The notes beneath the pieces were generated by a model. That model was given only the letters and a program-made list of their open reading frames with translations. It searched no databases and had not been told where the DNA came from. The position numbers and the translations under genes were made by a program. From Anaerolineae bacterium (GTDB lineage: Bacteria > Chloroflexota > Anaerolineae > Caldilineales > Caldilineaceae), in the NCBI GenBank assembly GCA_030432295.1, contig JAUIHI010000028.1, forward strand, positions 1-64,000: a stretch of DNA of 64,000 nt, read 5' to 3'. Positions 42,809-59,714 of the stretch are shown here, one piece after another. Position 1 is the first letter of the stretch, and every line of letters starts with the position of its first letter.

Positions 42809-44803
42809 TCAGTCCCCGGCAGCGGCAACCGCAGCCCCGACGGGTATATTCGTTGTGCGTTTGACGGGATGGGGCCAACTGGCGATGAGCGTGCCCAAAA
42901 TCAGCACCAGACCACCGATCCACATCCAAGCAGTGAGCGGGTTGATGAAGATCGTAAGTGTGACGGTCGATCCGCCATTCTCCCAGCCGTTGAGCAGAAC
43001 GTAGACATCTTCCGTCAGCGTCATACGCAGGCCAACTTCACTGGTAGGCATATCCGGCGTCTTGTCGTAGAGGTTGCGCAGGGGCAGGAGTGAGCCGACC
43101 ATTTTTCCGTTGCTGTCGTGGACGATCATCCGCGCCCCGATCTCCGTGCGATTGGAAGCCCGGTTGTTTTCCAGCCCCACATACGTCAATTCATAGCCGC
43201 CCAACTCAACTTTCGCGCCGGGGGCCAGGGTGACATTTGTCGTCTGCTGGAAGAATTCGTTGCCAATGATGGCGACCGCAATCATCACCATCCCCAGGTG
43301 GACGATATAGCCGCCGTAGCGCCGCCCGTTGCGCCGCATCAGACTGCCCATAGCCACAAAGACATTTTCGTTGTTGGTCATCCGTCGGGCAATGACACCC
43401 CGCACAAATTCCTGGACGATTGTAGCTGTGGCAAAGGCGCAGATGGCCAGCCCAACCGACGGCCAGGGATTGGGGGTGAGGAAGATAGCCAGCACACCCA
43501 TTACCACACCAGCAATCAAAGGCCAGGTGAACTGTTGGCGCAAGGCTTTCATCCCGGTGCGCCGCCAGCCCAGCAGAGGGCCAATACCCATCAGTAAAAA
43601 GAGGAGCAGAAAGAGCGGGCCGTTGACTTTGTTGAAGAAGGGGGCCGCCACACTGATACGCTCACCGGTCAGGATTTCGCTGAACATCGGGAAAAACGTG
43701 CCCCAGAGGGTGGCAAAAGTGATGCTGGCAAAGAGCCAGTTGTTGCCCAGAAAGGCAGCTTCCCGGCTGGAATAGGAGTCGATGGACTGTTCGTCTTTGA
43801 GCAGATAGAGCCGTTTGAAGAGCAGCCAGAGAAAGCCAAAGACAATCAGAATCATAAAGCCCAGGAAGAGGGGGCCGACATCGCTCAGGGCGAAACTATG
43901 CACACTTTCCAGCACACCGCTGCGGGTGGTGAATGTGCCCAAAATGACCAGGAAATAGGTGAGCCAGATCAGCACCACATTCCAAACCTTCATGACACCC
44001 CGCTGCTCCTGAATAATAATGCTGTGCAGAAAGGCCGTGCCCGTCAGCCAGGGCAGGAAGCTGGCATTCTCTACCGGGTCCCAGGCCCAATAGCCGCCCC
44101 AGCCTAACTCCATATAGGCCCACTGGCTGCCCATCAGAATCCCCGCGGAGAGGAACATCCACGGGATGAGAGTCCAGCGGCGCACAGTGCGCACCCATTC
44201 GTTGCCCACCCGTTTGCTGATCAGCGCGCCCACAGCAAAGGCAAAGGGAACCGCCAGCCCTACATAGCCCAGATAGAGCATCACCGGGTGGATGACCATC
44301 CAGTAATTTTGCAGGAGCGGATTCAGCCCCTGGCCGTCGGCGGGAATGAAGGTGGACTGTTTGAAGGGATTGGCAGCGAAGACGAGCAGAATGAGGAAAA
44401 AGAGAGATGTCCCCAGCATCACAGCATTGACGTAAGGCATCAGCACCTGATGGCGACGGCGATTGAACACGGCCACCGCCACGCTGTAGAGGGAGAGCAG
44501 CAGTGACCAGAAAAGCAGACTGCCCGCCTGCCCGCCCCACAGAGCCGAAAACTTGTAAAAGTTGGGCAGCGCCCGTTCCGAGTGGTTCCAGACATAAGTG
44601 AGTTGGAACTGATCGGAGAGCAGGCCATACCAGAGCATTATCGCCGCAATGCCCACCAGACCAGCCACAGCGTAGACAGCGTGAAAGCTGCTCTCTACCA
44701 GCCGCTGGTTGCGCAGTTGCCCGCCAGCAAAGCCAAATACAACACCTGCACCAGAGAGAACCAGCGCTGTAACAAGAATTAGATAACCGATGTTGAATAG
44801 CAT
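42809..44803 (-). CDS. ccmF: Cytochrome c haem lyase subunit CcmF
   Basis: 664 residues with about 14 membrane helices. CcmF takes haem from CcmE and, with CcmH, joins it to CXXCH motifs outside the membrane. The tryptophan-rich WWD motif ([18 protein letters not shown]) is at 235-252, and conserved histidines in [10 protein letters not shown] (~172) and in the [12 protein letters not shown] segment follow. The last ~130 residues form the periplasmic domain ([15 protein letters not shown] onward). It is in a row with ccmG and ccmH, close to the multihaem cytochromes it must serve. Confidence 0.95.
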
Positions 44804-44905: not shown

Positions 44906-45493
44906 TCACTTAGGCCGAATTTTCGCCAGAAACCCATCCATCTGGGCCTGGCTGGTGATGGGACCGACGATCACATCGACGATTTTACCTTCGGGATCGA
45001 TGAAAAATGTCTCTGGCACGCCCTGAATGCCGTAGCGCCGGGCCACCTGACTGCGCAGGTCTGGCCCGTTGGGATAGGTGATGTCGTACTCGGCCAGATA
45101 GGCTTTGGCCGCGGGTTCCTGGTCCAGATAGTCCAGCCCCAAAAAGATAATGCCGTTGCCCTGCTCCCGTCGCCAGGTGCTTTCCAGCATCGCGGCCTCT
45201 TCCCGGCAGGGGTCGCACCAACTGGCCCAGAAGTTGACCATCACCCCCTGGCCCCGCAGATCGTCCAGATTGATAGTCTCCCCTTCAAAGGTGGTGAACT
45301 CCAAAGGGGGAGCGAGACCCTCGGCCCGGTGTTCGGTCTTGGCTGTGCCCAGACGCATAGCGAGAAAGATGACAAAAATCAAAGGCACAAGCACAAAAAT
45401 AGCTCGCCAGATTACCACCGCTTTGGACACCGGAGCCGTTTCGCTCGGGAGATCAGGCAGGGGACCCGTCTGGGTTTCGGTCATTTCAGTCAT
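44906..45493 (-). CDS. ccmG: Thioredoxin-like protein CcmG/DsbE
   Basis: 195 residues from the ATG at 45493, which overlaps the ccmH stop by 8 bases. A membrane anchor (~27-46) is followed by a thioredoxin fold: [13 protein letters not shown] holds the redox pair Cys93/Cys96, GVPETFFID is the cis-proline loop. It keeps apocytochrome CXXCH thiols reduced before haem attachment. The acidic insertion LDYLDQEP is typical of CcmG. Confidence 0.92.
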
Positions 45494-46004
45494 AACGGGA
45501 AAGCTCCTGCTCCAACTTCTGTGAATAGTCATCGGCCTGGGCCGCGGTTTGTGCCCCGGTTGTTTCAGCCCCGGAAGGGTCGGATGCGGACTGGGGCCGG
45601 ATCATTCGACGAATGCCGTACCAGACGAAAAGGCCGCCACCCACCAGTCCCAGCACTGGCAGAATCCACGCCAGCCAGTTGAAGCCCTCCGTGGGCGGCT
45701 GACCGTAGACCTGTGGCCCGTACTGTTCGGCAAAATATTCCCGAATCTCCACTTCGCTGGCTCCCTCGGCCAGTTTGATGGCGATCATATCCTTCATCTG
45801 CTCACAGGCTTTGAGTTCGCAGGCATCCAGACGCACGCCGCTGCACAGGGGACACCAGAGACCCCGGGCCACTTCGTTCACCTGATCCGCCGTGATGGCG
45901 CTGGTGTCGGGCGTGGGCGTCTGGGCATATGTCGCGCTCGTGAATGACAAAAGAATAAGGGAAAAGACAAGAATACGGATGAAGGAAATGGAACGAATTT
46001 TCAC
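45486..46004 (-). CDS. ccmH: Cytochrome c-type biogenesis protein CcmH (CcmL)
   Basis: 172 residues: signal peptide (~1-27, cleaved near TYAQ), then a helical domain with the redox motif LWCPLCSG (Cys51, Cys54) and a C-terminal membrane helix (~110-128). CcmH reduces apocytochrome disulfides with CcmG. The usual motif is LRCxxCQ; here Arg and Gln are replaced (LWCPLCSG) and two further Cys (DACELKAC) follow, a variant I have seen described for Gram-positive-like and Chloroflexota proteins but cannot verify here. First gene of the ccmHGF row. Confidence 0.88.
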
Positions 46005-46234: not shown

Positions 46235-48388
46235 CTACGGGCGTTCCATATCAGACACATCGACTCCCAAATCTTCCAGGCTGTCGTACAGCACCTGTAG
46301 GATGTAGGCTCCGTTGTGGGCAAAGGCGCCCGGGTCCTTTGCTACGTACTGATAGTTGTAGGCGGCCTGCAAGAGGCGCGGCGTCCAACTGGCAAAGCCA
46401 TTGGTACGCACTGCTTCATCTGCATCCGCTTCGCCGTTGCCGTTGGTGTCGGCAAAGAAGTAGGGGTACGAGTGGGATTCGTAGACAATACCGGTTTCCA
46501 CAGTCGCCAGCGCGTATTCTTGCATCGCCGCGTACAGGTCATCCGTCATTGACTGAATCTCGTAGTAGATCCCTTCTTCGTCGTCGCCATTGCCGTTGTA
46601 GTCGCCAAAGTTGTAGCGGATATCGTGAATGTCTTCACTATCCTCTATCTCCGAATGACATTCTACACAGGTCGCTTCGTTCGTCTGCAAGCTGTGGGCA
46701 CCGTGACAATCCGAGCATTTGGCCGCTTCATCCACGTGCTCAAAGAAGCCCGCATACTCCTTGTCGGGGTATTGGAAGGCTCCGTTGGCATCCGCGCCAA
46801 AGCGAGTCGCGCCCGCCGCAAAGTAGTGAACGTTCAAGAAGCGCAGTTTGTCTGATGTGGCATCGGCTTCGATACCCGCGGTCAAATTCTCTACGCTCTT
46901 GCCGGACTCACGTCCCTGGTGGCAGGTCATACACAGATTGGTGTTGGTGTCCTCAGCTTCCATATACTCTCGAGCATCGATTGTCGCACCGCTGGGGAAG
47001 GTCACACTCTCGACTTCGTAGAGGGTGAATTCGACCAGATCGTTGTGACAGGTGGAGCACTGGAAGCCATTGGCGATGGGTTCGCTGACGTTGACGCCTT
47101 CTTTGATGTAGGTGGGCAGACCACCTGCGCTGTGACAACGCGCACAACTGCCCGACACTTCACCGTCGTCATCCCAGTGGCGGAAAGCCTCTTCGGAACC
47201 GGCAAAGTGACCGGCGTCGATGCGAGACATGGCAGACATATCCACAGCGCTGTCACCCAGCGCCGCGTTCAGGTCCATCATCGAGTCGTACATCAACTGA
47301 ATGTCATATTTGCCGCCGTGGGCATAGGCCCCCGGGTCCTTCTGATAGGTCTGGTAGTTGTAGGTTGCCTTGACCAGACGCGGTGTCCAGGTGGCATAGC
47401 CACCCTCGTCATCGTCTCTGACGTCGTTGCCATTGGCATCGGCGAAGAAGTAGGGATAGCTGCTGCTGTCGTAGATGATGGCGGTGGTCAGGACAGTGGT
47501 GGAATAGCTCTGGATGGCGCTATACAGAAGCTCAGAGACTCCCTGAAGCTCGTAATAGATGCCCTCCTCCATATCGCCGTCACCGTCATAATCGCGCAAC
47601 GAGCCTGCCATGCGCACATCCATCAGGTCTTCGACACTCTCCACACCCTCGTGACACGCCGCGCACTCGCTCACTTTGACTTCCAGCGTGTGGGCGTTGT
47701 GACAGTCGGTGCAGGTGCTGTAACCATCTACGTGGGCAAAGTTGCCATCGTAGGTATTGCCGTCATACTCATAGCCACCCTTGGCCAGCGTGCCATATTT
47801 CGTAGCGGCCGCCGGGAAGTAGTGGATGTTGCGGAAACTGAGACTGGCGCTGAGGGTGTCATCGGTTTCTACAGCGGCGTCGGTAATTCGTTGATCGACG
47901 CTAATTTTGGACTCGCGTCCTTGATGACATTCCATACAGCGGGCTTCTGCACCGAGGCCAGTGAGTTCGATGCCGGACGGCATAACGACGCTTGTCTTAT
48001 CCATCGTTGCGTCGTTATGACAGGCAACACACGAAACCACTTCGCCTACGGCTACTGCGGCGTCGACGACGCCGGCTTCGCTGCCATCGGCTCCCAGATA
48101 GTCCTGATATCCGGAAGTGCTGTGACATTTGGCGCAGCTTGTGGGAACCTCAGCCGGATCGTCCGCATCCCAGTGGATGAAGGCTTCGGCAGTTACATCC
48201 GCGTGGGGAGAGGCGGCCCATTCTGCTACATAAGGCACAACCAAATCCGTCAACGGATCGCGAGGTTCTTCTTCCTGTTGGGGAGCCACCGGCTCCACCC
48301 CCAGGCTCTGCTTACCAATCGCACGATCGGCAGTCACAGCGAAGACCAGCATCACGACAATACTAGCGAGGAGAAAGATCTTTCTCAT
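46235..48388 (-). CDS. Secreted decahaem c-type cytochrome with duplicated pentahaem/EF-hand module
   Basis: 717 residues from the ATG at 48388 (AAGGAG upstream), starting with a signal peptide (MRKIFLLASIVVMLVFAV). Ten CXXCH motifs: CAKCH, CVACH, CMECH, CTDCH, CAACH in the first half and CARCH, CSTCH, CMTCH, CSDCH, CVECH in the second. The two halves are tandem copies of ~335 residues, each followed by EF-hand-like calcium loops (DYDGDGDMEEG, DANGNDVRDDDEGG; then DYNGNGDDEEG, DTNGNGEADADEA). No membrane anchor, so it should be soluble in the outer compartment or bound to the surface cytochromes. It is likely an electron shuttle of the adjacent respiratory complex; partner and acceptor are unknown. 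Confidence 0.88.
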   Translation of the reverse strand: MRKIFLLASIVVMLVFAVTADRAIGKQSLGVEPVAPQQEEEPRDPLTDLVVPYVAEWAASPHADVTAEAFIHWDADDPAEVPTSCAKCHSTSGYQDYLGADGSEAGVVDAAVAVGEVVSCVACHNDATMDKTSVVMPSGIELTGLGAEARCMECHQGRESKISVDQRITDAAVETDDTLSASLSFRNIHYFPAAATKYGTLAKGGYEYDGNTYDGNFAHVDGYSTCTDCHNAHTLEVKVSECAACHEGVESVEDLMDVRMAGSLRDYDGDGDMEEGIYYELQGVSELLYSAIQSYSTTVLTTAIIYDSSSYPYFFADANGNDVRDDDEGGYATWTPRLVKATYNYQTYQKDPGAYAHGGKYDIQLMYDSMMDLNAALGDSAVDMSAMSRIDAGHFAGSEEAFRHWDDDGEVSGSCARCHSAGGLPTYIKEGVNVSEPIANGFQCSTCHNDLVEFTLYEVESVTFPSGATIDAREYMEAEDTNTNLCMTCHQGRESGKSVENLTAGIEADATSDKLRFLNVHYFAAGATRFGADANGAFQYPDKEYAGFFEHVDEAAKCSDCHGAHSLQTNEATCVECHSEIEDSEDIHDIRYNFGDYNGNGDDEEGIYYEIQSMTDDLYAAMQEYALATVETGIVYESHSYPYFFADTNGNGEADADEAVRTNGFASWTPRLLQAAYNYQYVAKDPGAFAHNGAYILQVLYDSLEDLGVDVSDMERP

Positions 48389-48710: not shown

Positions 48711-49568
48711 TCACTGTGCTGGCGAGAATACCTCTACTGTCTGTCTCGGCACAGTCGTAATGGCCGTTTCCTCGAAAGTGACGAAGAAGTAGACGCTGAC
48801 CAGCATAACGAGAGAAAAGATAACGGCCACCGGGAGATAGAGGCGCTGGCGGCGACGCAGAACTTCTGGGTCCACCGTTTTGGCCGGGCTGCTCTCAATG
48901 GCGGCCAATTCAAGCGGATGTTCTTCCTCCATCTCGTGGCGGTTGAGCCATCCGCTGAACATACTTTTGTTGAAATTCTTCACGTGGACGTTGTACATGT
49001 GCCAGGTGACAATCGACAGCACCGCGAGCAGGGCCTCTCCGCCGTGGGCTGCTTTGGCTGCGGGGATAAGCTCACCGGGCAGCATGCGGGTGGTGGCAAT
49101 CGGGTTCCAGAGGACAAAGCCGGTCAGAATCATAATGACTGTCCCCCAGACCACCGCCCAATATTCCACTTTTTCGCCAAAGGTATAACGCCCCATCTTG
49201 GGCGGCTCTTTGATCAGGCCGAAGTTGTATCCCAGACTCTGCACCACATCTACAACATCTTTCCAGCCGGGCAACATCGACATCTGCACCCGTTTTACCA
49301 CCAGCCGGTAGCCGACACCCACCAGGTGATAGATGGAACCGACAATCAGCACAATCGCCGCGGTGTGGTGGATGAAACGGGTCAGTTCGATGCCGCCCAT
49401 CAGCCGGATCATCCCTTCGCCCCAGCCCGTGTCGGGATATTTCTGGGGCAGGCCCGTGATAGAGAGGATTGTAAAGCTGAGAATCAGCAGAGCGTGTTCA
49501 ATGCGTTGTCCCGTGTCAAAACGGGGATAGCGTTCACTTTTGTGGTTCCCAGTCGTTTTGTGGCTCAT
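48711..49568 (-). CDS. Membrane cytochrome b (b561/FdnI-like), electron entry subunit
   Basis: 285 residues with five membrane helices (about 26-44, 62-85, 130-150, 170-195, 240-262). His residues placed as haem-b ligands are in RIEHALL (helix 1), RFIHHTAA and IYHLVGVG (helix 2) and WHMYNVHVKNF (helix 4), the pattern of formate-dehydrogenase gamma/hydrogenase cytochrome b. It would pass electrons between the quinone pool and the multihaem cytochromes. The start overlaps the stop of the 15-haem gene (ATGA), whose C-terminal membrane helix probably docks here. Confidence 0.85.
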   Translation of the reverse strand: MSHKTTGNHKSERYPRFDTGQRIEHALLILSFTILSITGLPQKYPDTGWGEGMIRLMGGIELTRFIHHTAAIVLIVGSIYHLVGVGYRLVVKRVQMSMLPGWKDVVDVVQSLGYNFGLIKEPPKMGRYTFGEKVEYWAVVWGTVIMILTGFVLWNPIATTRMLPGELIPAAKAAHGGEALLAVLSIVTWHMYNVHVKNFNKSMFSGWLNRHEMEEEHPLELAAIESSPAKTVDPEVLRRRQRLYLPVAVIFSLVMLVSVYFFVTFEETAITTVPRQTVEVFSPAQ

Positions 49569-51268
49569 TCTTCCCCCTCCTCTTTGCGGGGTTTGGCTGC
49601 TCGTCGGCTGCGCAGACTGTCACCTGTGCGCCGATAGACATCCGAACCGATGAGCAGGGCAAATCCGCCCACTACCACCGGAATCAGAATCTGGTAGAAA
49701 AGATTGATGTAATAGACCAGCGGATTGTGTTCCGGCGACGGCTCGAAGTGGCTTGTCCAGGATGCCGGGAAGTTGGCGTTGGCGTCCGGGTGACACTGCT
49801 GGCAGGTGACCACCAGATTGTCTTTGATCACCTGGGAATGCTCGTCGTTGGCGGGCAGAATGTTGTGAACGCCGTGGCAGTCGTAGCAGACGGCTTTGTT
49901 CGTCTCCTGCCAGGGCGTCTGCTTCTCAAAGAGCGCCACAGTCGTGCCGTGGAAATCGGCCACGTATGTGTCAAAGACTGCTGTGGAAATGTCATACTTC
50001 GCCATCAGCGTCTCGTCCGCGTGGCAACTGGCGCACAGATTGGGCGATTCCACCCGGAACTGGGCTGTCTGGGGCGGCGCAATGTTGTGAACACCGTGAC
50101 AGTCCGTGCAGACCGGTACATCCGGGTTCTGCTCGCCGAGCAGAGCCGCGCCGTGGACACTGCCTGCGTACTGTTCATTGATTGTGGAATGGCACTGCCC
50201 GCACGTATCCGATATCCGCTCGCGTGGCTCGTTGGGCGGCTGGATGTTGTGGCTGCCGTGGCAATCCGCGCAGGACGCCGCGGCCAACTCACCCCGCTCT
50301 CTGGCTGCCTCGTGCACCCCGTCGTGCTCCAACGCCGCAATATCCGTGTGACACTCCTGGCAGAGATCGTCCATTTCCAGAGTCAAGCCCCGGGCGTCGT
50401 CCACAGTGAGAGGCGCATGGGGAAAGGCGTAGCGCTCTTCATCCCGGTGGCAACTGGTGCAGCTCAGGGGAGAATAACTATTCTCCACCATCGACGAGCC
50501 GTGGACCGAATCGGTGATCGTGGCCGGGTCCACATGCAATGGGACCTCCTCGCCCGAAGCCAGTTCAAGACTGCTATCCAACAGCAGGTGACAATTGCGG
50601 CAGCTCATATCCGCCGGGTAGACGGGTTTGTCGGTATGACAGGTCTGGCAAGTTTGATCCGGCCCCAAATTGGCGGCCAATTCTGCGTGGACCTCTCCAA
50701 CTTTGGGATCGTCGTAGGTCTGATGGCAACTTTGGCAGGTCGCCACCGGGTCTGCGCTCAGCGTTTCTGCCGGTGTCACACTGTGGCCCTGGCCGTGACA
50801 ATCCACACAGCCGGGCAGATTGGGGTTGTCCACCGCGTTCAGATGGCCGGGGTTGTGCTGGTCCAGGGGCGTGTGACAGCTCTGGCAACTCTCGCCGACC
50901 TGCGTCCGGTACTCCTCCAGCGTCGTCGCCGGGTTGGGCAGATGGGGATAGCGGTAGTTGGTGTCGTTGCGATGGCAATCGACACAATTGACCGGAGCGG
51001 CCGCATCGCTGCCGTGGGCAGAAGCCAGCAGAGTGTCCAAATCCACGTCCAGCGGCAGAAGCTCACCGGAGGGCAGGGGCAGGCTGTGCTCGTTGTCGCC
51101 GTGACAGCCTACACAGGGCGAATCCGGTGAGGGCGATTGGGCAAGAGTTGGTGTCGGCAGCATCAGCCAGAAGGCAATTAGACAAAAAACAGCTACCGAT
51201 AAAACTCGCCACGCGGGGACCGCAGAAGCCGCAGATTTTCGCAGAGGGAATCCGTGCAAATCTGTCAT
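49565..51268 (-). CDS. 15-haem membrane-anchored c-type cytochrome
   Basis: 567 residues from the ATG at 51268, ahead of a signal peptide with core LSVAVFCLIAFWLML. Fifteen CXXCH motifs: CVGCH, CVDCH, CQSCH, CVDCH, CQSCH, CQTCH, CRNCH, CTSCH, CQECH, CADCH, CGQCH, CTDCH, CASCH, CYDCH, CQQCH. Haems 1-5 and 7-11 are two copies of one pentahaem module (with LPSGELLPL-/ASGEEVPLH-, Y..PH and CxDCHGxH landmarks); 12-15 are two CxDCHGVHNI...CxxCH units. A C-terminal membrane helix (FYQILIPVVVGGFALLIGSDVY, in part) anchors it. Long haem chain next to cytochrome b: likely an electron wire out of the membrane. The start codon lies in a word-like repeat. Confidence 0.88.
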   Translation of the reverse strand: MTDLHGFPLRKSAASAVPAWRVLSVAVFCLIAFWLMLPTPTLAQSPSPDSPCVGCHGDNEHSLPLPSGELLPLDVDLDTLLASAHGSDAAAPVNCVDCHRNDTNYRYPHLPNPATTLEEYRTQVGESCQSCHTPLDQHNPGHLNAVDNPNLPGCVDCHGQGHSVTPAETLSADPVATCQSCHQTYDDPKVGEVHAELAANLGPDQTCQTCHTDKPVYPADMSCRNCHLLLDSSLELASGEEVPLHVDPATITDSVHGSSMVENSYSPLSCTSCHRDEERYAFPHAPLTVDDARGLTLEMDDLCQECHTDIAALEHDGVHEAARERGELAAASCADCHGSHNIQPPNEPRERISDTCGQCHSTINEQYAGSVHGAALLGEQNPDVPVCTDCHGVHNIAPPQTAQFRVESPNLCASCHADETLMAKYDISTAVFDTYVADFHGTTVALFEKQTPWQETNKAVCYDCHGVHNILPANDEHSQVIKDNLVVTCQQCHPDANANFPASWTSHFEPSPEHNPLVYYINLFYQILIPVVVGGFALLIGSDVYRRTGDSLRSRRAAKPRKEEGEE

Positions 51269-51312
51269 ATCCGTGTCAATCCGTGTTCGTTTTTTTTGGT
51301 TAGAAATCGAAA

Positions 51313-52989
51313 TTAAGATTCCGGTGCGCCAATGTCGATCCATTGAATAATCCACTCCAATTCCCTCGGGGCAAGGCTGTTGGGATGGCCCTTGCGTTGA
51401 TATTCCACCAGCAGGCTTTCGGCAGCAGCACCCGGCACAAGAGCCGGTCCCAAATTGCCGCCTGCCATAAATTCGTCGTAACTTTCCAGATAGAGCCCAG
51501 CCGTGCCGCCGTGACAGGCCGCGCAGCGGGACTGTAAAATTGGCCCGATCAGGTCGTCCCAGGTCAATCCGCTCTCCGGATAAGTCGGCAGAGAATCCAC
51601 CAGGACATTTGTCAATTCGATAATGCGGGTGGCGTCCAGCCCGGCGTAAATCCACTCTGTCGCATGACAAGCGCTGTTGGCACAAAAGCTGGAGTTGTCG
51701 CTTCCGCCCGCATTGGAAACGTCGTGACAGCCTTCGCATGTCCCATCGAACTCAAAGCGATGGCGGCTGATCCAATTGCTGTCGATGTGTGATTCCGGCT
51801 CAAAGGTGTTGGCAATTGCCAGAGTCGGCAGGGTTCCATCCGGTCGGCTCTCCACCGGAATCGTATGGCAGAGATTGCATTCGATACGGATGCTCTCCTG
51901 GGCTTCGTTCAGGTGCTTACCATCGTGACAGCGGAAGCAGCCTGCGGAATCGTCGTGGCCCACATTGTTGGGATGGGTCTCCCACGTCACGTCCATATTC
52001 GGATAGAACATCCGCTCGTAGATTGCCATCAGTTCGTCTACCGCATCCGAGACCGTCGCTTCGTAGCGGGTGTAATATTCCGGCCAATTGACCGCATAGA
52101 ACTGTTTCAAGCCCAGAATCGCCGTGCGGGCCTCTTCGATATTGGGATAATTCCGATCCATCACCGCTATGGCATATTTTTTGATGTACGGAATATCTGG
52201 GGAAACTATCCCCCGGGCCAGAGCGTCGTTCAGCGCATCGTCTGGCGTGGCAAAAGGATGTGAATCCCGGTTGTGACAGGTCATACAGTCCATTGTGCGC
52301 AGATTGGCCTGATTCTGCTCGACAAAATCGGCTGGGAGATCGACTTCTGTGTCAGTGAAAATCTCCGTGCGCCCATCCGCGGCGTATGTCACCTGCACCC
52401 AGGGAATCTCCTGCTCCAGATGGCGGTCATCGGTGAAAATGTAGTCCACTTGATTTTCGATATGCCAGTGGATGCCTTTGCCCTGGCCTTCCCGCTCGGT
52501 CCCACCGCCGGTTTTGAAGGCCATATACATCACCGAAAGCTCGTTGTTCTTCTCCGCGTCGTAGCGCTTGAACTCCCGCAGGCTGTCGTCAGAAAACTTC
52601 TCTGGGCTGTGGCAGCGCTCACAGGCTTGCGAGGCCGGGCGCAACTTTTTTGAATAGATGGGCACTTCGTAGCTGGCCCCCACAAACTCCACTACGTGGC
52701 TGATATCCTGAGCCTTGCGGGTGAATTGGGTGGCAATGTAATCCCGCCCGATGTGACAATCCACACAGTTCACCCGGGAATGGACCGATGCCTGCCACGC
52801 CTCGTATTGGGGCGGCATTGTGTGGCAGGTTGTGCCACAGAAAACCGAACGGTTCGTATATTCCCATCCCGCCCCAGCCAGGGCAAAGACCACCAGCCCG
52901 GCAAAGACAACCGTTGCATAGGGCATCAACCGTAGCCACAGGGGCGATGAACGCTCCGGGGTGATAAAACGATTGAGTCTATCAAGCAT
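51313..52989 (-). CDS. NapC/NirT-like membrane-anchored multihaem cytochrome with unusual haem motifs
   Basis: 558 residues. An N-terminal membrane helix (~22-42) is followed by a NapC/NrfH-like start: CGTTCH (51-56, a CX3CH motif), then VHSRVNCVDCHIG. Further CXXCH motifs: CERCH, CMTCH, CFRCH, CNLCH, CEGCH and CAACH (489-493), plus CANSACH (436-442, a CX4CH motif). That gives up to nine haems, seven canonical. The last ~80 residues are a planctomycete-type cytochrome c domain (LIGPILQSRCAACHG ... PRELEWIIQWIDIGAPE). NapC/NrfH proteins oxidise quinol and pass electrons outward. Its ATG overlaps the stop of the 13-haem gene by 8 bases. Confidence 0.87.
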   Translation of the reverse strand: MLDRLNRFITPERSSPLWLRLMPYATVVFAGLVVFALAGAGWEYTNRSVFCGTTCHTMPPQYEAWQASVHSRVNCVDCHIGRDYIATQFTRKAQDISHVVEFVGASYEVPIYSKKLRPASQACERCHSPEKFSDDSLREFKRYDAEKNNELSVMYMAFKTGGGTEREGQGKGIHWHIENQVDYIFTDDRHLEQEIPWVQVTYAADGRTEIFTDTEVDLPADFVEQNQANLRTMDCMTCHNRDSHPFATPDDALNDALARGIVSPDIPYIKKYAIAVMDRNYPNIEEARTAILGLKQFYAVNWPEYYTRYEATVSDAVDELMAIYERMFYPNMDVTWETHPNNVGHDDSAGCFRCHDGKHLNEAQESIRIECNLCHTIPVESRPDGTLPTLAIANTFEPESHIDSNWISRHRFEFDGTCEGCHDVSNAGGSDNSSFCANSACHATEWIYAGLDATRIIELTNVLVDSLPTYPESGLTWDDLIGPILQSRCAACHGGTAGLYLESYDEFMAGGNLGPALVPGAAAESLLVEYQRKGHPNSLAPRELEWIIQWIDIGAPES

Positions 52990-54847
52990 CGGACGCCCTC
53001 CTGGACCAGAACCAGCGACCAGCGAGCAACAATAGAATCAGCCCCACCAGCCCTAATCCTGCAAAGAAGAAAGGCCGCACCCAGGCGAAATCCACATACG
53101 CGCTGACTTCGTGGCGTTCGCCAACCGAGGGCAATGGCGTAGGAACCGGCGGCGCAACCGGCGTCGGGCCTGGCTCAAAGACGTATTCCGTACGCACAAT
53201 CGAATAATTTTCTTTGGCCCAATTGATCGTCTCTGCTGCCCACTCTGCCGTTTCCGCCTGATCCGTGTGGCACTGGTTACAGGCGTTAGGCTGAAACTCC
53301 ACCCCGCCGTACTCCAGACTGCCTTGGGGATTGGGCTGGGAGAAAGTGTGGTTGTGAATGTCATATTCCACAGCCGATGTCGCCATCAGCGGTATATGAC
53401 AATCGTTGCAGGCAAAGTCCCGCTTGGTAATGGCCTGCTGGTGGTACGGGATGTGCCGGGCCAGAGTCGTCTTTTCCGCGTGGCAGCCGCTACACAGTTC
53501 ATTCGTAGGCAGGATTGTCTGGGACGGCCCTAATCCTTTTTCGTGGGCCACGTGGCAGGTGGAGCAGGTCAGTTCATCCGATTCCTGCATTTTGTTGCTT
53601 TGAATCCAATCCGTGTACTGCTGGTTGTGGATTTTGGCGCTGCCATCTGGCCAAAGGGTCGTCTCATCCGCGGTAAAAGTGAAGTGATCGGTCAATGTAT
53701 CGCCGGGCTGATAGCTGGCCGGGAAGGGATGTCCCTCCAGCGATTCACCCCGGCTGTGACAGGCCCCGCAGACCTGATCGTCCGGTTCACTGAAGACTGC
53801 CACTTCTTCCGGTGCGTCCGCGTGTGCCTCGCCCGGCCCGTGGCAATCCTCACAGCCGATGCCAAACTCCTGGAACTCCCAGGCAGCGGTATCCAGCCCG
53901 GTCACGTGGCAGAAGCTGCACTCCGTCCGCCAGTTGACCGTCTCACCCTCGGCCCGGTGATCCACTACCCATTCCTGGGTGGCGATATTCCACTGGCCGG
54001 GCAGGACCAGCAGTTCGCCTTCCTCGGTTTCGGCGATAAAGCGCTGCTGCCACTTCTGGCCGATTACATACTTCACATCGGCCAAGCCAAAGGATAGCGC
54101 CAATTCCGGCTGCTCAAAATCGGCCAAAATCGCGTCCGGCGCAAGGCTTGGGTCGTGAATCGTCCTGGCGTGGAGGGTATCCCCCCAGCCCAGATAGTTG
54201 TCTGTGTGACAGCCCAGACAGGTGCGGCTGCCCACATAACCATCCGCGCCTTCCCCCAGACCAGTGCGGGGAGCGATCAGCGCCTGTGCCCAATCCTCCG
54301 CCTGCTCTGTGTGGCAGGCCAGACAGTTGGGGGCCATTGCCTCGGCAATCTGAGCAACCGGTGCAATGGCGTGGCTGCCATGACATTCCACACAGTTGGG
54401 CAGATCGGCTGGGGCCACATTTGCCACTGGCTCCTCATCCTCTGCATTGCGGTGCAGGGGATTGTGATAGACGTGACACTCCTGGCAGTTCTGGCTGGCA
54501 AGCGCCGTATATTCGTCCCGGCTCTGGGCCGGTTTGGTCGGGTGAGGATAGCGGTAGCGGGTCGGCCCCAGATGACAACTGGTGCAGCCCACCTCCACTT
54601 CCCCACTGCGGTTGTGAGGCGATGCGGCCAATTCACCCGGCAGGGCCAGCAGCGGCAATTCCTCTCCAGAAGGCAGTGTGAAGACACGTTGGTTGTCCTG
54701 ATGACAGCCGATGCACGCCCCATCCGGGGGGGGCGGATCGGCGTAGACGGTTGCAACATCTATCGCGCCAATCCAGGCCAGCCCGAGCAGCAGCAGCCCA
54801 CCCCAGACGAGTATCTGTGTTTTACACAGTGCCCCTCTTGCCATCAT
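52982..54847 (-). CDS. 13-haem membrane-anchored c-type cytochrome
   Basis: 621 residues: signal/anchor helix (~12-32), 13 CXXCH motifs (CIGCH, CTSCH, CQECH, CVECH, CLACH, CLGCH, CSFCH, CEDCH, CGACH, CSTCH, CSGCH, CNDCH, CNQCH) and a C-terminal membrane helix (~588-610). Haems 1-5 form the pentahaem module also found twice in the 15-haem protein; haems 6-13 form an octahaem module (VGSRTCLGCH, VIGQKWQQRF, CSFCHVTG, CEDCHGPG, CNDCHIPL) collinear with the octahaem lipoprotein encoded next. The octahaem part resembles cytochrome c554-type folds. Placed between the lipoprotein and the NapC-like gene, it is a probable bridge of the complex. Confidence 0.87.
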   Translation of the reverse strand: MMARGALCKTQILVWGGLLLLGLAWIGAIDVATVYADPPPPDGACIGCHQDNQRVFTLPSGEELPLLALPGELAASPHNRSGEVEVGCTSCHLGPTRYRYPHPTKPAQSRDEYTALASQNCQECHVYHNPLHRNAEDEEPVANVAPADLPNCVECHGSHAIAPVAQIAEAMAPNCLACHTEQAEDWAQALIAPRTGLGEGADGYVGSRTCLGCHTDNYLGWGDTLHARTIHDPSLAPDAILADFEQPELALSFGLADVKYVIGQKWQQRFIAETEEGELLVLPGQWNIATQEWVVDHRAEGETVNWRTECSFCHVTGLDTAAWEFQEFGIGCEDCHGPGEAHADAPEEVAVFSEPDDQVCGACHSRGESLEGHPFPASYQPGDTLTDHFTFTADETTLWPDGSAKIHNQQYTDWIQSNKMQESDELTCSTCHVAHEKGLGPSQTILPTNELCSGCHAEKTTLARHIPYHQQAITKRDFACNDCHIPLMATSAVEYDIHNHTFSQPNPQGSLEYGGVEFQPNACNQCHTDQAETAEWAAETINWAKENYSIVRTEYVFEPGPTPVAPPVPTPLPSVGERHEVSAYVDFAWVRPFFFAGLGLVGLILLLLAGRWFWSRRASDA

Positions 54848-54863
54848 TCACCCAACCCATCGG

Positions 54864-56096
54864 CTATGGCTTATTCAGGCTACCAGCCAGTTCCCGCTCG
54901 TGGAAGCCCAGGGCCGCTTCCTGCAGCTCCTCATCAGTCAACTCTGTCCCCCGGCCACCGTCGTAGTGACACCCCCGACAGGCAGGCACCACTGTCAGAT
55001 AGGGTTCTGAAAAACCGTCTCTGTCGAACTGACTCGTCTCCATCGGGTTGATGGCGAAAAGATGGGTATGCACATCTGCGCTGAATTGGGCCGGATCACT
55101 CAATGCACTCACTGTCAGCAATGGCATGTGACAGTCGGTACAGGTGGCGTGGCGGCGGTCGTTGATCTTCTGGTAATCGGCATTCTCGAAATGGCAACTC
55201 TCGCAGTCGGTTTTGATGCCTTCTCCCCGACTCGCATATTTTATCGTCTCATGGGGGTTGTGACAGTCCACACAGTCCATCACCCGCTTTTTAGAAGAGA
55301 AGAGTTCGTCGTACTGCTGATTGTGGGCGATGAAACCGTCCTGCCCTTCCAAAGCCAATTGATCTTCCCGGCTGTGGCAGGTTCCGCACGATTCCGAATC
55401 CCGGATGATAGGCATATCCACCATATACGGATCGTTCACGTGATGTTCCGCGGGTCCGTGACAAGCCTCACAACCCACGCCATCCTCAGCCCACATGCCG
55501 ACCAGCCCCGGCAGCCCGTCCTGATTGCCTTCCGCCCGGTAGCCGGTGGTGTGACACGATCCACACGTAAAGGATTGTTGCTCAGCCGCGTGAAAATCCA
55601 CCCAATCGTCCCCCATATCCAAGTCGTTGTTGGGCAGACGGTATTCGGCGGTAGCGGTAATGATATATCCCTGAAGATCGACGAAATTGGCCTTCCAGCC
55701 ATAGCCACCGATCACATAAAGAATGTCATCCCACGCATAGCCTTCCGGCGGATTGGGCACTTCGGAGAAGGGGTAGGTGGGCGCTTCCCCATCCACCACT
55801 TTTGTCAACGGATGGGCGTGCCCTGTATTGCTATAGGATGTAAACAGTTCCTCATGGCATTCCTGGCAGGCATCCGAGCCGACGTAGACAGGAGGGGCAA
55901 AGGCGACGCCCGCTGGGCCTGCGGGGCCTTCCGGGCCAGACGCGCCAGTAGAGCCGGGCGGGCCTGCCACCCCTTCGGGTCCCTGGGGACCGGGCGCACC
56001 TACAGGACCAGCGGGGCCAACCGGCCCTGCAATGCCGCAGGCTGCCAAAAGGGATAGGGCCGCAATCAGAAAAATTGCAAGGACTAGACGCTTCAT
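54864..56096 (-). CDS. Octahaem cytochrome lipoprotein with collagen-like stalk
   Basis: 410 residues from the ATG at 56096 (GGGAGG upstream). A lipoprotein signal ends LLAAC (lipid-modified Cys20). It is followed by 14 Gly-X-Y collagen triplets (21-63, rich in GPA, GPV and GPE), then eight CXXCH motifs: CQECH, CGSCH, CEACH, CGTCH, CVDCH, CESCH, CTDCH and CRGCH, with VGSDACQECH and VIGGYGWKANFV landmarks shared with the octahaem module of the 13-haem protein. Membrane-tethered and held away by a rigid, probably trimeric stalk, it is well placed as the outermost electron donor or acceptor. It is the first gene of the coupled cytochrome block; no clear promoter. Confidence 0.88.
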   Translation of the reverse strand: MKRLVLAIFLIAALSLLAACGIAGPVGPAGPVGAPGPQGPEGVAGPPGSTGASGPEGPAGPAGVAFAPPVYVGSDACQECHEELFTSYSNTGHAHPLTKVVDGEAPTYPFSEVPNPPEGYAWDDILYVIGGYGWKANFVDLQGYIITATAEYRLPNNDLDMGDDWVDFHAAEQQSFTCGSCHTTGYRAEGNQDGLPGLVGMWAEDGVGCEACHGPAEHHVNDPYMVDMPIIRDSESCGTCHSREDQLALEGQDGFIAHNQQYDELFSSKKRVMDCVDCHNPHETIKYASRGEGIKTDCESCHFENADYQKINDRRHATCTDCHMPLLTVSALSDPAQFSADVHTHLFAINPMETSQFDRDGFSEPYLTVVPACRGCHYDGGRGTELTDEELQEAALGFHERELAGSLNKP

Positions 56097-56304: not shown

Positions 56305-58197
56305 CTATTCACTCAACTGCAAAGCCACTGTCAACAGTTCCGCCTTGAGGCGCGCCCGCTGCTGCTGCCAATTCTCATCACTCACCTCGCCCACCGCGTG
56401 GAGATCGTCCAGTTTGGCGATGCGCTGGAGCAGGTCGGTGCGCTGGCGGCGCATCATCGCCTTTGTGTCGGTGCTGGTATGCGCCATTCGCGCCCGCCAG
56501 GCCCAGGCGAGAACACCCACCACCCCAAACAACAGAACACCCCCCAATACCCAGGGCGTCCACCCCTCCAACTGGGGAACCCGGGCCGAGACGCCTGCGC
56601 TTTGGGTTCCAGATGCGCCAGAAGCACCCGTTGTGCCAGCCGCGGCACGGGGATCGATGTCACCAGCCGCGAGTAGATCAGAAAACTGGGCCGACACACT
56701 CTGATCCGGTGTGATATTCTCGCTCTGCCACATCTGATAGGTCTGCCCCTGAATGTCCTGGGGGCCAAAGCTCTCCAGCCCGGTGACAGAAATCTGCATT
56801 CCGGGTAGTTCCGAGACCAGCAGGTTCAGGCTATTGGCCGGATAGGGCACAGCACCAGAAAATTCGGTGGAGGTTCCATTGTAGGGCAGTGCATAGCGCA
56901 CCACCACCTGGCGTGTGCCTGTGCCGGGGACAACCGGCGCTGTGTCGAAGATCGTGTGGCCCACCTGCAAAAAGCGGCCACCCAACTCGCCATTGTCAAA
57001 AGTAATTTCGACCGCGGCTGGGGGCACGGGAATCGCCACCGTAACCGGCGTCTCCACGCCTTCCACTGTCCGGCCTGTGAAGGCCCGATCCATATTGTTG
57101 CTATAGGCGTAAATCTGGGCCACAATCAGCGCGCCGGGCTGGGAATCCACAATCCAGTGTGCCCGTTCCAGGGTGATGCCACTCTCGTCATCCGTCGGCT
57201 CATAGACATTGACAGTAGTTTCCAGGCTGTCGGTTCCTTCGCCGTACATCAGAATCGGGCTACTATAGCTGATTCCGTCCAGGGTGACCGAAGCAAAATA
57301 GACCACTGATGGGTCCGTCGCCAGATTGGCGAAGGAAAAATCGCCCTCGGCCGTTAGGGTGTCGGTGAAGGCCACAACCGGCGTGAAATCCACAAAGCCT
57401 TCCAGCAGAACCTCCAGCCCCTCCACCGACGCGCCGCCCGCAGTGCCCTGCTCCACCCGGCCAGTGAGTACGCCCGTGCCGGGCCGATAGGCCGAGGCCC
57501 AAATTGGGTTATAGCTAAAGGTACGCACAAATTCCAGCACATTGCGCTGCTGCTCTTCGGTGAAGTCTGCGCCCACCTCCGGGTGGGCCGCCTGCCAGCC
57601 CGTCAGCCAACCGGCCTGGCTGATCGCCATAGCATAGCGGGTGTCGCTGAAATCGCTGATCACATCGCCGCCGTTGGGACCGTCCCCCGCGCCCGTCTCC
57701 CCGTGACATTCGGCGCAGGCCCCGGTGTAAAGCAGTCCGCCCGTCTCGACAGAAAATTGGTCGGTATGCAGATTCCAGGCATAGGCCACTGCATTCCAGA
57801 TTTGGGCGTCGCTCAATGTATTGCCCCAGGGAGGCATCAATTTTTCAAGGCGTCCGAATTTGGCTGTGTGGAAAAGCTCGGCGGGACTGCGCTCCCAGAC
57901 AGCAGTGGGGTCGGCGAAGGCCGTGGCCGGGTCGGGCAGACTGGGTGCGGTGGGGCCATCTCCCAGCCCGGTCTCGCCGTGACAGGGAGCGCAGTTCTCG
58001 GCATAGAGCGGGCTACCCGCCCGTGCACTGGGTATGGTGTCTGGCGCAGGAACCTGGGCCAGATCGAAGGGTGGCGAAGGCTGCTGCCCTGCGGGTGCGG
58101 GTGTCTCATCGGCCAGCAGCAGGCCAGGTAAAAGAAGTGCGCTGACGAGAAGCAGCATCAACAAGGAGATACGGCGTAAGGACCAAACGGATCGCAT
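56305..58197 (-). CDS. Membrane-anchored dihaem cytochrome c with beta-domain and C-terminal helix bundle
   Basis: 630 residues from the ATG at 58197, ahead of a signal peptide. Two cytochrome c domains carry CAPCH (69-73, with Met121 of LEKLMPPWG as sixth ligand) and CAECH (161-165). A carboxypeptidase-regulatory-like beta domain (from ~GVLTGRVEQG) and a further beta-rich part follow, then a membrane helix (WVLGGVLLFGVVGVLAWAW) and a cytoplasmic CcmI/SHOCT-like tail (LLQRIAKLDDLHAVGEVSDENWQQ, in part). It may be a soluble-side electron acceptor or a sensor-like subunit of the neighbouring cytochromes. It stands in its own unit after ccmE. Confidence 0.8.
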   Translation of the reverse strand: MRSVWSLRRISLLMLLLVSALLLPGLLLADETPAPAGQQPSPPFDLAQVPAPDTIPSARAGSPLYAENCAPCHGETGLGDGPTAPSLPDPATAFADPTAVWERSPAELFHTAKFGRLEKLMPPWGNTLSDAQIWNAVAYAWNLHTDQFSVETGGLLYTGACAECHGETGAGDGPNGGDVISDFSDTRYAMAISQAGWLTGWQAAHPEVGADFTEEQQRNVLEFVRTFSYNPIWASAYRPGTGVLTGRVEQGTAGGASVEGLEVLLEGFVDFTPVVAFTDTLTAEGDFSFANLATDPSVVYFASVTLDGISYSSPILMYGEGTDSLETTVNVYEPTDDESGITLERAHWIVDSQPGALIVAQIYAYSNNMDRAFTGRTVEGVETPVTVAIPVPPAAVEITFDNGELGGRFLQVGHTIFDTAPVVPGTGTRQVVVRYALPYNGTSTEFSGAVPYPANSLNLLVSELPGMQISVTGLESFGPQDIQGQTYQMWQSENITPDQSVSAQFSDLLAAGDIDPRAAAGTTGASGASGTQSAGVSARVPQLEGWTPWVLGGVLLFGVVGVLAWAWRARMAHTSTDTKAMMRRQRTDLLQRIAKLDDLHAVGEVSDENWQQQRARLKAELLTVALQLSE

Positions 58198-58312: not shown

Positions 58313-58795
58313 CTAGCGGGTAGACTGGACAAAGACTTCTTCCGGCTCTTCCTCATAGCGGCTGGGACACTTCAACAGCAGTGTGTCTGCCTGGAAGGAG
58401 CCATCGCTCAACAGTTCACCCTCGATAATCGCAGAGGCGGCCCGCACAAAGTTGTCTGGACGGGGACCATAGAAGACGATGGGAAGCTGCTCGTGGCTGC
58501 TCTCATCAGCTATGGTAAAACGCAACGTCATCTCTTGAGGTTTCCAGTCCTCGCTGCCCTCTACCACATTTCCGCTTACCCGCACCCGCTGCCCGGTGAG
58601 GGCGGGTGCGCGGTCCAGGGTTTCGGCCACGGTCAGGAAATAGGCTCCGGTCGAGACTGTAGAGTAGACAATCAACACCACAACCAGGGCCAACATAATA
58701 ACGCCACCCAAAATAAATTTGAGATTGCCATTTTTTGGCTTGGCCCCGGCCAGACTGTCGGGAATCGAAGGGATGTATTCGGCAGTGTGGGTCAT
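58313..58795 (-). CDS. ccmE: Haem chaperone CcmE, CxxxY type
   Basis: 160 residues from the ATG at 58795 (a TTG at 58831 is a weaker alternative). One membrane helix (~27-47) then an OB-fold beta domain ([60 protein letters not shown]). CcmE binds haem covalently and hands it to CcmF. In most bacteria the binding motif is HxxxY; here it is CPSRY (Cys143, Tyr147), the CxxxY variant known from some Desulfovibrio and archaea, which needs no CcmH-type lyase of the usual kind. Separate from ccmFGH, it has its own promoter. No CcmABCD in the window. Confidence 0.9.
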
Positions 58796-58861
58796 AGGTT
58801 TGCTCTTTTTCGGTTCAGAAGTCGGCCCCAAACAGGCCCATGAGATTCACAATTACTGGAA

Positions 58862-58889
58862 AGTATACCATAGTTTAGCATTTAGTCAA
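58862..58889 (-). promoter_or_regulatory. Sigma-70 promoter of ccmE
   Basis: On the minus strand TTGACT (58884-58889) and TATACT (58862-58867) spaced by 16 bases; leader of about 60 nucleotides. Confidence 0.7.
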
Positions 58890-59021
58890 CGCGGAAACGC
58901 TACCCATATGGGGAGTATTGAAACTGTTCTGCTATCAGTTTTGCAGGTTTTGGGCAATCGACCAAAGGCTGGTAAAGTCAACTTGCTATCTTTGGCTGAT
59001 TTGCGCGGGGAGAAGGCTCGC

Positions 59022-59714
59022 ATGCCCAACAAAATTCTGATTGTCGATGACGACCCGATGCTCTCTGAGTTGATCGGCTATAACCTGGAGAGCGAAGGGT
59101 ATGCGATTGTCCGCGCACAGGATGGACGGGAAGGATTGGCAAAGTTTGAGACCGAGCAGCCAGACCTGGTGATTCTGGACGTTTCTATGCCCAAACTCAA
59201 CGGCTGGGAAGTCTGCGAGCGCATCCGGGCCGTCTCCGACACGCCGGTGATGATGCTCACGGCCCAGGGCCGGGAAGAGGATATTGTGCGCGGGCTGGAT
59301 TTGGGTGCAGATGACTATCTGACCAAACCCTTTCAGGTGCGGGTGCTGCTGGCCCGCATCCGGGCAGCCCTGCGCCGTGCCCATCTCAGCCCGGAGCCGG
59401 AGCCGGAAGTCACCTACGCCGACGACTATCTGGTCATCGATCTGGCCGACCGACGGGTCACAGTGGACGGCGAAATCACCAAACTGACGCCAACCGAATA
59501 CAAATTGTTGGCTTTTCTGGTGGAAAATAAGGGTCGGATTCTCACCTTTCGCCAAATTTTGGAAAATGTCTGGGGCTTCGAATACATCGACGACATCGAC
59601 TATCTGCGGGTCTACATCTGGCATCTGCGCAAAAAGATCGAACAGGATTCCAAGAATCCAGTCTATCTCCTCAACGAACTCAGCACGGGCTACCGTTTCG
59701 TACCGCAAAACTGA
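59022..59714 (+). CDS. OmpR/PhoB-family response regulator
   Basis: 230 residues from the ATG at 59022 (AGAAGG upstream). Receiver: Asp9-Asp11 acidic pocket (VDDDP), phospho-acceptor Asp53 (ILDVSMPK), Thr80, Lys102 (TKPF). Winged helix: [17 protein letters not shown] and [15 protein letters not shown], with the terminal GYRFV. No kinase is adjacent, so the partner is elsewhere. It is divergent from ccmE; the shared gap may carry control sites. Confidence 0.92.

Follow-up and report, generated by a model that had tools for sequence, protein, structure and literature searches.

The stretch of DNA considered here, 64,000 nucleotides long and hereafter called the window, covers positions 1 to 64,000 of contig JAUIHI010000028.1 from an Anaerolineae bacterium of the Chloroflexota (family Caldilineaceae; assembly GCA_030432295.1; source genome of 6.7 Mb, 100% complete) and encloses five contiguous genes, designated A to E, encoding four multihaem c-type cytochromes and a cytochrome b. 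This cluster probably serves extracellular electron transfer (EET), as an electron conduit of the respiratory chain in a monoderm Chloroflexota. At the membrane, two quinol dehydrogenases, the E/D pair and C, would oxidise menaquinol; E, a di-haem cytochrome b, would pass its electrons to D in the manner of a split CbcL-type enzyme, and D (15 haems), the neighbouring cytochrome H (10 haems) and C would be the wires taking electrons outward. Electrons would move along D, H and B and leave through A and B, the putative OcwA-type terminal cytochromes, which would donate them to acceptors at or beyond the cell wall, with Fe(III)/Mn(IV) minerals, humics, other cells and electrodes as candidates. 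The adjoining ccm genes would supply haem maturation for the ~55 c-haems involved. The function itself, the outward direction, the order of electron transfer, the contact between subunits and the acceptor are what we infer from sequence, for which a quinone-to-surface conduit, already suggested in a first-pass annotation of the window, is the best reading. This reading draws on the conservation of the operon in Caldilineales (L072, L073, L178 and L180, loci being referred to by number), the ImcH features and NrfH fold of C, the collinearity of D and E with fused proteins together with the retention in E of presumed FdnI haem-b ligands, the homology of A and B to the surface cytochromes OcwA and OmhA, and the agreement between conserved free His and haem number in the D core, B and H; the absence of Omp85 further points to a conduit devoid of porin, and the physiological record of EET in a Chloroflexota, Ardenticatena maritima (PMC5808234), also counts in its favour.

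The gene block and its predicted quinol dehydrogenases

Carried by the minus strand and transcribed in the order A-B-C-D-E from 56096 down to 48711, the five genes are separated by 16 (A/B), -8 (B/C), 44 (C/D) and -4 (D/E) bases and their products bear 43 CXXCH motifs, against 0.23 expected from composition-preserving shuffles of the same proteins. Motif and domain scans bear out what the first-pass annotation had described, namely the gene order and gaps, the haem counts (8, 13, 7+2, 15 and 0 from A to E), the collagen-stalked lipoprotein and the cytochrome b. The five genes it delineated are real but do not make up the whole unit, which has at least six cytochrome genes, H being added, as well as ccm genes. 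Among homologues, the proximal His of every CXXCH motif is invariant in A, in H and in the nine haems of the D core, and nearly so in B and C; besides, the conserved free His equal the haem number in the D core (9/9), in B (13 conserved free His for 13 proximal ones) and in H (10/10 or more). Since scans for promoters and terminators gave no excess over shuffles (6 vs. 5.1 and 13 vs. 10.0, respectively), the transcription unit is deduced from gene spacing and synteny.

C (51313..52989, minus strand) is an ImcH-type quinol dehydrogenase of the NapC/NrfH family with nine haem sites and a C-terminal PSCyt1-type domain, in agreement with the NapC-like quinol oxidase initially proposed. In addition to 7 CXXCH, it contains a CX3CH at residue 51 (CGTTCH), beside its single N-terminal transmembrane (TM) segment (21-39), and a CX4CH at residue 436. 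These two longer motifs, also spotted at first, fall opposite normal CX2CH sites in the alignment with NrfH (2j7a_C) and their His is kept in 78/80 and 77/80 of the C homologues, respectively, on which grounds they are very probably real haem sites. Homologues of ImcH, an inner-membrane cytochrome of Geobacter in the NapC/NirT family, are characterised by N-terminal TM segments, an adjoining atypical CX3CH and five to nine CX2CH, and the sole Chloroflexi homologue of the 2018 survey, from Anaerolinea thermophila, has one TM segment (Zhong and Shi, 2018, PMC6295460). C shares with them the N-terminal TM segment, the CX3CH adjacent to it, at least six further CXXCH (seven, within the range of five to nine) and the NapC/NrfH quinol dehydrogenase fold. 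It differs by having one instead of the three N-terminal TM segments typical of ImcH, which is why it is called ImcH-type rather than ImcH, as well as by the extra CX4CH, the PSCyt1-type domain and the CbcL-type pair encoded alongside. For both the ImcH and CbcL classes, the assignment is based on published features and fused metagenome homologues rather than on named Geobacter sequences.

Regarding its structure, the AlphaFold model of C (pLDDT 85.4) matched NrfH (2j7a_C) in a structural library with a Z score of 8.2 over 142 residues, the next unrelated match being at 4.6, and a hidden Markov model comparison with the same chain (E 3e-15) gave a match split between residues ~25-106 and 408-445. 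From its sequence, C looks like an NrfH-like tetrahaem protein with ~300 inserted residues and further haems; the middle of C (~residues 107-408) gave no convincing structural match, an absence that proves nothing. Lys92 of C, nearly invariant in 80 homologues, aligns with Lys82 of NrfH, which we take to be a quinol-site residue together with Asp89. The small mono-haem PSCyt1-type domain forming the end of C (51316-51530) recurs on different subunits, since it is found at the end of E in L033, L051, L052, L060 and L061.

D (49565..51268) and E (48711..49568), both on the minus strand, are by their sequences a split CbcL-type pair and not CbcL proper. D is a membrane-anchored cytochrome with 15 CXXCH, a signal-like N-terminus and a C-terminal TM segment, the C-terminal nine-haem core of which corresponds to the c half of CbcL-type proteins; this core exhibits nine invariant proximal His and nine conserved free His over 52 sequences, and D matches the MtrA-like chain 6r2q_A (E 1.4e-12), which we take to be the MtrA chain although the PDB entry labels it otherwise. 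E, devoid of CXXCH, is an FdnI-like di-haem cytochrome b (PF01292) corresponding to the b half; it matches FdnI (1kqf_C, E 3.5e-14), and its His25, 67, 175 and 190 align with His18, 57, 155 and 169 of FdnI, presumably the haem-b ligands, so that the four haem-b His conserved in CbcL are retained. The D core and E are collinear with single fused polypeptides, of the kind represented by CbcL, MtrH and MtoC, at nine loci in other phyla, namely L126 (labelled Deltaproteobacteria; nine haems and a cytochrome b), L134 and L146 (both Ignavibacteria), L148 (Bacteroidota), L135, L138 and L149 (all three Acidobacteria), L136 (Thiotrichales) and L140. At 7 of these 9 loci, the fused gene precedes a C-type gene by 1-140 bases, and CbcL-type and ImcH-type genes thus adjoin each other in several phyla. 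Whereas CbcL is a single polypeptide, D and E come from separate genes that overlap by 4 bases, and D carries six additional haems in its N-terminal part. None of the CbcL homologues listed in the 2018 survey was from Chloroflexi (PMC6295460). In a cytochrome b tree, the split Chloroflexota forms lie apart from the fused forms of other phyla, with an unsure root as the outgroup FdnI sits on a very long branch. In Geobacter, ImcH and CbcL are used at different redox potentials, on which basis the ImcH-type and CbcL-type enzymes of a single operon may be suited to acceptors that differ in potential; the presence of both dehydrogenases in one operon raises a sharp question on potential-dependent respiration.

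Putative terminal cytochromes, the stalk of A and the cell envelope

A (54864..56096, minus strand; ATG at 56096) encodes a lipoprotein with a collagen-like stalk and an octahaem head of the c554/OcwA/MccA type (8 CXXCH; PF01391, PF13435 and profile matches). The lipobox, LAAC, is followed by ~15 Gly-X-Y triplets scoring 29.3 bits against the Pfam Collagen family (PF01391, cut-off 27.2), and because this stalk occurs in 15/17 A homologues, it is a retained feature and not the accident of one genome. Being collagen-like, the stalk would probably be trimeric and, from the collagen rise per residue, roughly 12 nm long; lipobox and stalk are both consistent with a placement of A at the cell surface. 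There was no sign of a phage origin, the only PHROGs matches being collagen-like phage tail fibres and confined to the stalk. An AlphaFold model of A built from 18 sequences had a pLDDT of 39.7 and was left unused. In the literature searched, beyond which lay preprints and most subscription journals, there was no report of collagen combined with a multihaem cytochrome; a collagen stalk acting as a spacer for a surface cytochrome is a testable structural idea.

B (52982..54847, minus strand) is a 13-haem cytochrome with a C-terminal TM anchor and an OcwA-like middle domain (residues 203-419). In profile comparisons, A matched OcwA (6i5b, E 5e-26), OmhA (3e-13; 6qvm, taken as OmhA from its 681 residues and its name) and, through its C-terminal half, MccA (4rkm, 4.6e-9), and B matched OcwA (6e-29) and OmhA (1.6e-11). 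OcwA is a surface terminal reductase of the monoderm Thermincola potens (PMC6703420), and OmhA from Carboxydothermus ferrireducens occurs both on the surface of the cell and on magnetite of biogenic origin (PMC7829351), the two hosts being monoderm iron reducers. Both A and B align with OcwA over haems 1-4, the five-coordinate haem 2 included, and share with it the insert that separates haems 1 and 2. The open haems 2 and 5 of OcwA lie under His281/282 and His380/381, respectively (PMC6703420), which correspond by counting to chain positions 252/253 and 351/352 (offset of 29). His281/282 aligns with an H-H/N-x-Q-Y/F motif of A, with HH in 12/18 and HN in 2/18 sequences. The motif above haem 2 thus falls at the same place in A and B, whereas its second residue is Asn in both window proteins (HN). 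They further differ from OcwA and OmhA in that A has a lipid anchor and a collagen stalk and B has a C-terminal TM segment, as well as in their 8 and 13 haems, respectively, vs. 9 and 11; the OcwA arrangement of nine haems with an open haem 5 was thus not found in either. The conserved free His of A, of which five are invariant and two are present in 14-15/18 sequences, would be enough for bis-His ligation of six haems, which would leave one putative His-Met haem and one candidate open haem as in OcwA. The earlier statement that the cluster has no catalytic reductase stands as regards CXXCK, absent from a motif scan of A-E, H and a further cytochrome gene F, but is too strong as A and B align through the five-coordinate haem 2 of OcwA.

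No Omp85 was found in the genome itself or in eight gene-bearing relatives, 7/14 control genomes being positive in the same search, and the Anaerolineales are considered to have no envelope of the Gram-negative kind (PMC7399161; PMC5808234). The host seems to be devoid of an outer membrane; given both lines of evidence, no porin conduit is to be expected, and a stalked head on a lipid anchor would suit such an envelope. The porin-cytochrome conduit MtrCAB was discarded accordingly: the D core resembles the MtrA-like chain 6r2q, whereas the cluster has no beta-barrel gene and the genome no Omp85. Other known systems were considered and set aside, namely the nitrite reductase NrfHA, with which C shares the NrfH fold but for which neither NrfA nor CXXCK is present, an MccA-type reductase, for which there is no spare Cys for the copper site, and the CISM complexes (NrfCD, Qrc and alternative complex III), as there is no NrfD or Fe-S gene among the cluster genes.

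Conservation and competing explanations

The database check called for by the first-pass annotation did uncover a conserved gene cluster: the order ccmE-F-A-B-C-D-E-H-ccmH-ccmG-ccmF is kept in related Caldilineales at ~37-75% identity. It is whole from ccmE to ccmF in Caldilineaceae SJ384 (L073, 38-74% identity) and nearly whole in CFX7 (L072) and L178; in L180, A-B-C-D-E-H are present, C being recovered by tblastn (66%). L179 and L181 keep A-D-E-H with B and C missing, which makes B-C a separable module, fits two parallel branches and lends no support to the initial idea of all subunits in one complex. Across Anaerolineae more broadly, the shared core is H-D-E-C, where D has nine haems. Of the 62 C loci flanked by at least 4 kb on either side, 39 have both D and E within 6 kb. 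The Chloroflexota origin, initially deduced from sequence, is upheld by a C protein 95% identical in a metagenome-assembled genome labelled Litorilinea aerophila (Caldilineaceae). No C homologue was found in the plasmid collection. A occurs in 17/46 genomes of the family, that is in 10/17 genera.

Several points weigh against an EET conduit. Besides the many relatives from which A or B is missing, Asp89 of NrfH is not kept in C, the literature searched holds no experiment on any cluster member, and nitrogen compounds are also among the substrates of OcwA-type and c554-type proteins. The genome encodes two haem-copper oxidases (two COX1 genes), from which the host is probably facultative. While EET is known physiologically in Chloroflexota from Ardenticatena maritima, no protein of that bacterium has more than 7 haem motifs (PMC5808234), meaning that it does not use the A-E/H cluster.

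The dual activity of OcwA, which reduces nitrite and hydroxylamine besides serving Fe(III) reduction (PMC6703420), opens the way to a rather unlikely alternative, where C and E/D would oxidise quinol and A and B would reduce, by an open haem corresponding to haem 2 of OcwA, a soluble acceptor outside the membrane, be it nitrite, hydroxylamine, tetrathionate or another oxyanion. The alignment of A and B with OcwA haems 1-4, the counterpart of OcwA His281/282 in A (HH or HN) and B (HN), and the match of the C-terminal half of A to the sulfite reductase MccA all suit it. Yet the open haem of A and B is a candidate only, neither CXXCK nor a spare Cys for an MccA-type copper site is present, the nitrite turnover of OcwA is very low (1 per min; PMC6703420), and several wire-like multihaem subunits together with a long stalk exceed the need. 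Even less likely is an inward flow, by which Fe(II), a partner cell or a cathode would supply electrons to the surface cytochromes and quinone would be reduced through E/D (or C), with O2 or nitrogen oxides as final acceptor: CbcL/MtrH/MtoC homologues are found in Fe(III) reducers and Fe(II) oxidisers alike (PMC6295460), A. maritima performs both anodic and cathodic EET (PMC5808234) and two COX1 genes are available, but ImcH homologues, to which C is related in type, have been reported only from Fe(III) reducers (PMC6295460). With more than 50 haems per set and a catalytic site that is only putative, the proteins could also be thought of as mainly an electron buffer or a relay to other redox proteins bound to the wall, without an extracellular acceptor of their own; this is very unlikely in view of the conserved lipid-anchored collagen stalk of A and of the homology to surface terminal reductases. 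An outward conduit is preferred over these alternatives. A further step, possible but doubtful, would be to regard it as a self-contained, single-operon machine for extracellular respiration in which both Geobacter kinds of quinol dehydrogenase, suited to acceptors of differing potential, feed collagen-stalked trimeric cytochromes, the stalked heads spanning the wall in place of a porin or nanowire.

As for novelty, the papers searched contained no description of the cluster, nor did they yield a characterised homologous cluster, named in the first-pass annotation as a refutation; single components are characterised elsewhere. The suggestion of a novel respiratory complex does not hold as such, as C is ImcH-type, D+E are CbcL-type and A and B are OcwA/OmhA-type; what is new is the combination of components, the split CbcL pair in Chloroflexota and the collagen-stalked OcwA-type head. 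The cluster joins families studied apart, i.e. ImcH, CbcL and OcwA. Electron transfer across the wall of cells lacking an outer membrane is known in outline and only from a few thermophilic Firmicutes; the cluster is a concrete candidate for such a route. Chloroflexota abound in sediments, groundwater, sludge and anammox reactors, and their large cytochromes have had no assignment, as with those of Anaerolineales noted in anode reactors (PMC7399161).

Neighbouring genes and related loci

Downstream of E, H (46235..48388, minus strand) encodes an exported 10-haem cytochrome with two similar halves, attached to the block by synteny; its start (48388) is 322 bases beyond E and it has no sequence relative in the PDB. 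It is followed on the same strand by ccmH (45486..46004; PF03918, 72.2 bits), the gene of a ccmG/ResA-type thioredoxin (44906..45532) and ccmF for a haem lyase (42809..44803). Upstream of A come F (56305..58197, minus strand), with two class-I cytochrome c domains (PF13442 x2) and associated with ccm genes in relatives, then ccmE for the haem chaperone (58313..58801, minus strand; PF03100, 86.7 bits). Divergent from ccmE, an OmpR-type response regulator is encoded at 58863-59714 on the plus strand and is a possible regulator of the gene block.

In other Anaerolineae (L032-L036, L095 and L103), a divergent trio made of NrfD, a TAT Fe-S protein and an 8-haem cytochrome adjoins D-E-C, and 22- and 32-haem cytochromes are inserted upstream of D-E-C in L038 (1793-7294) and L107. 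A 6-haem lipoprotein cytochrome adjoining H in L036 (15644-16642) also has a collagen-like stalk, with a different head. Elsewhere in the genome carrying the window, a cytochrome of the octahaem tetrathionate reductase family (TIGR04315, 564 bits) adjoins a seven-haem protein of 927 amino acids fused to a cytochrome b (G000:C45, ~129-133 kb; L172:7052-11379), and a second multihaem locus (G000:C16, ~131 kb; L173:9050-13071) encodes an NrfD-like protein and two cytochromes, one c554-like with 8 haems and one with 7 haems.

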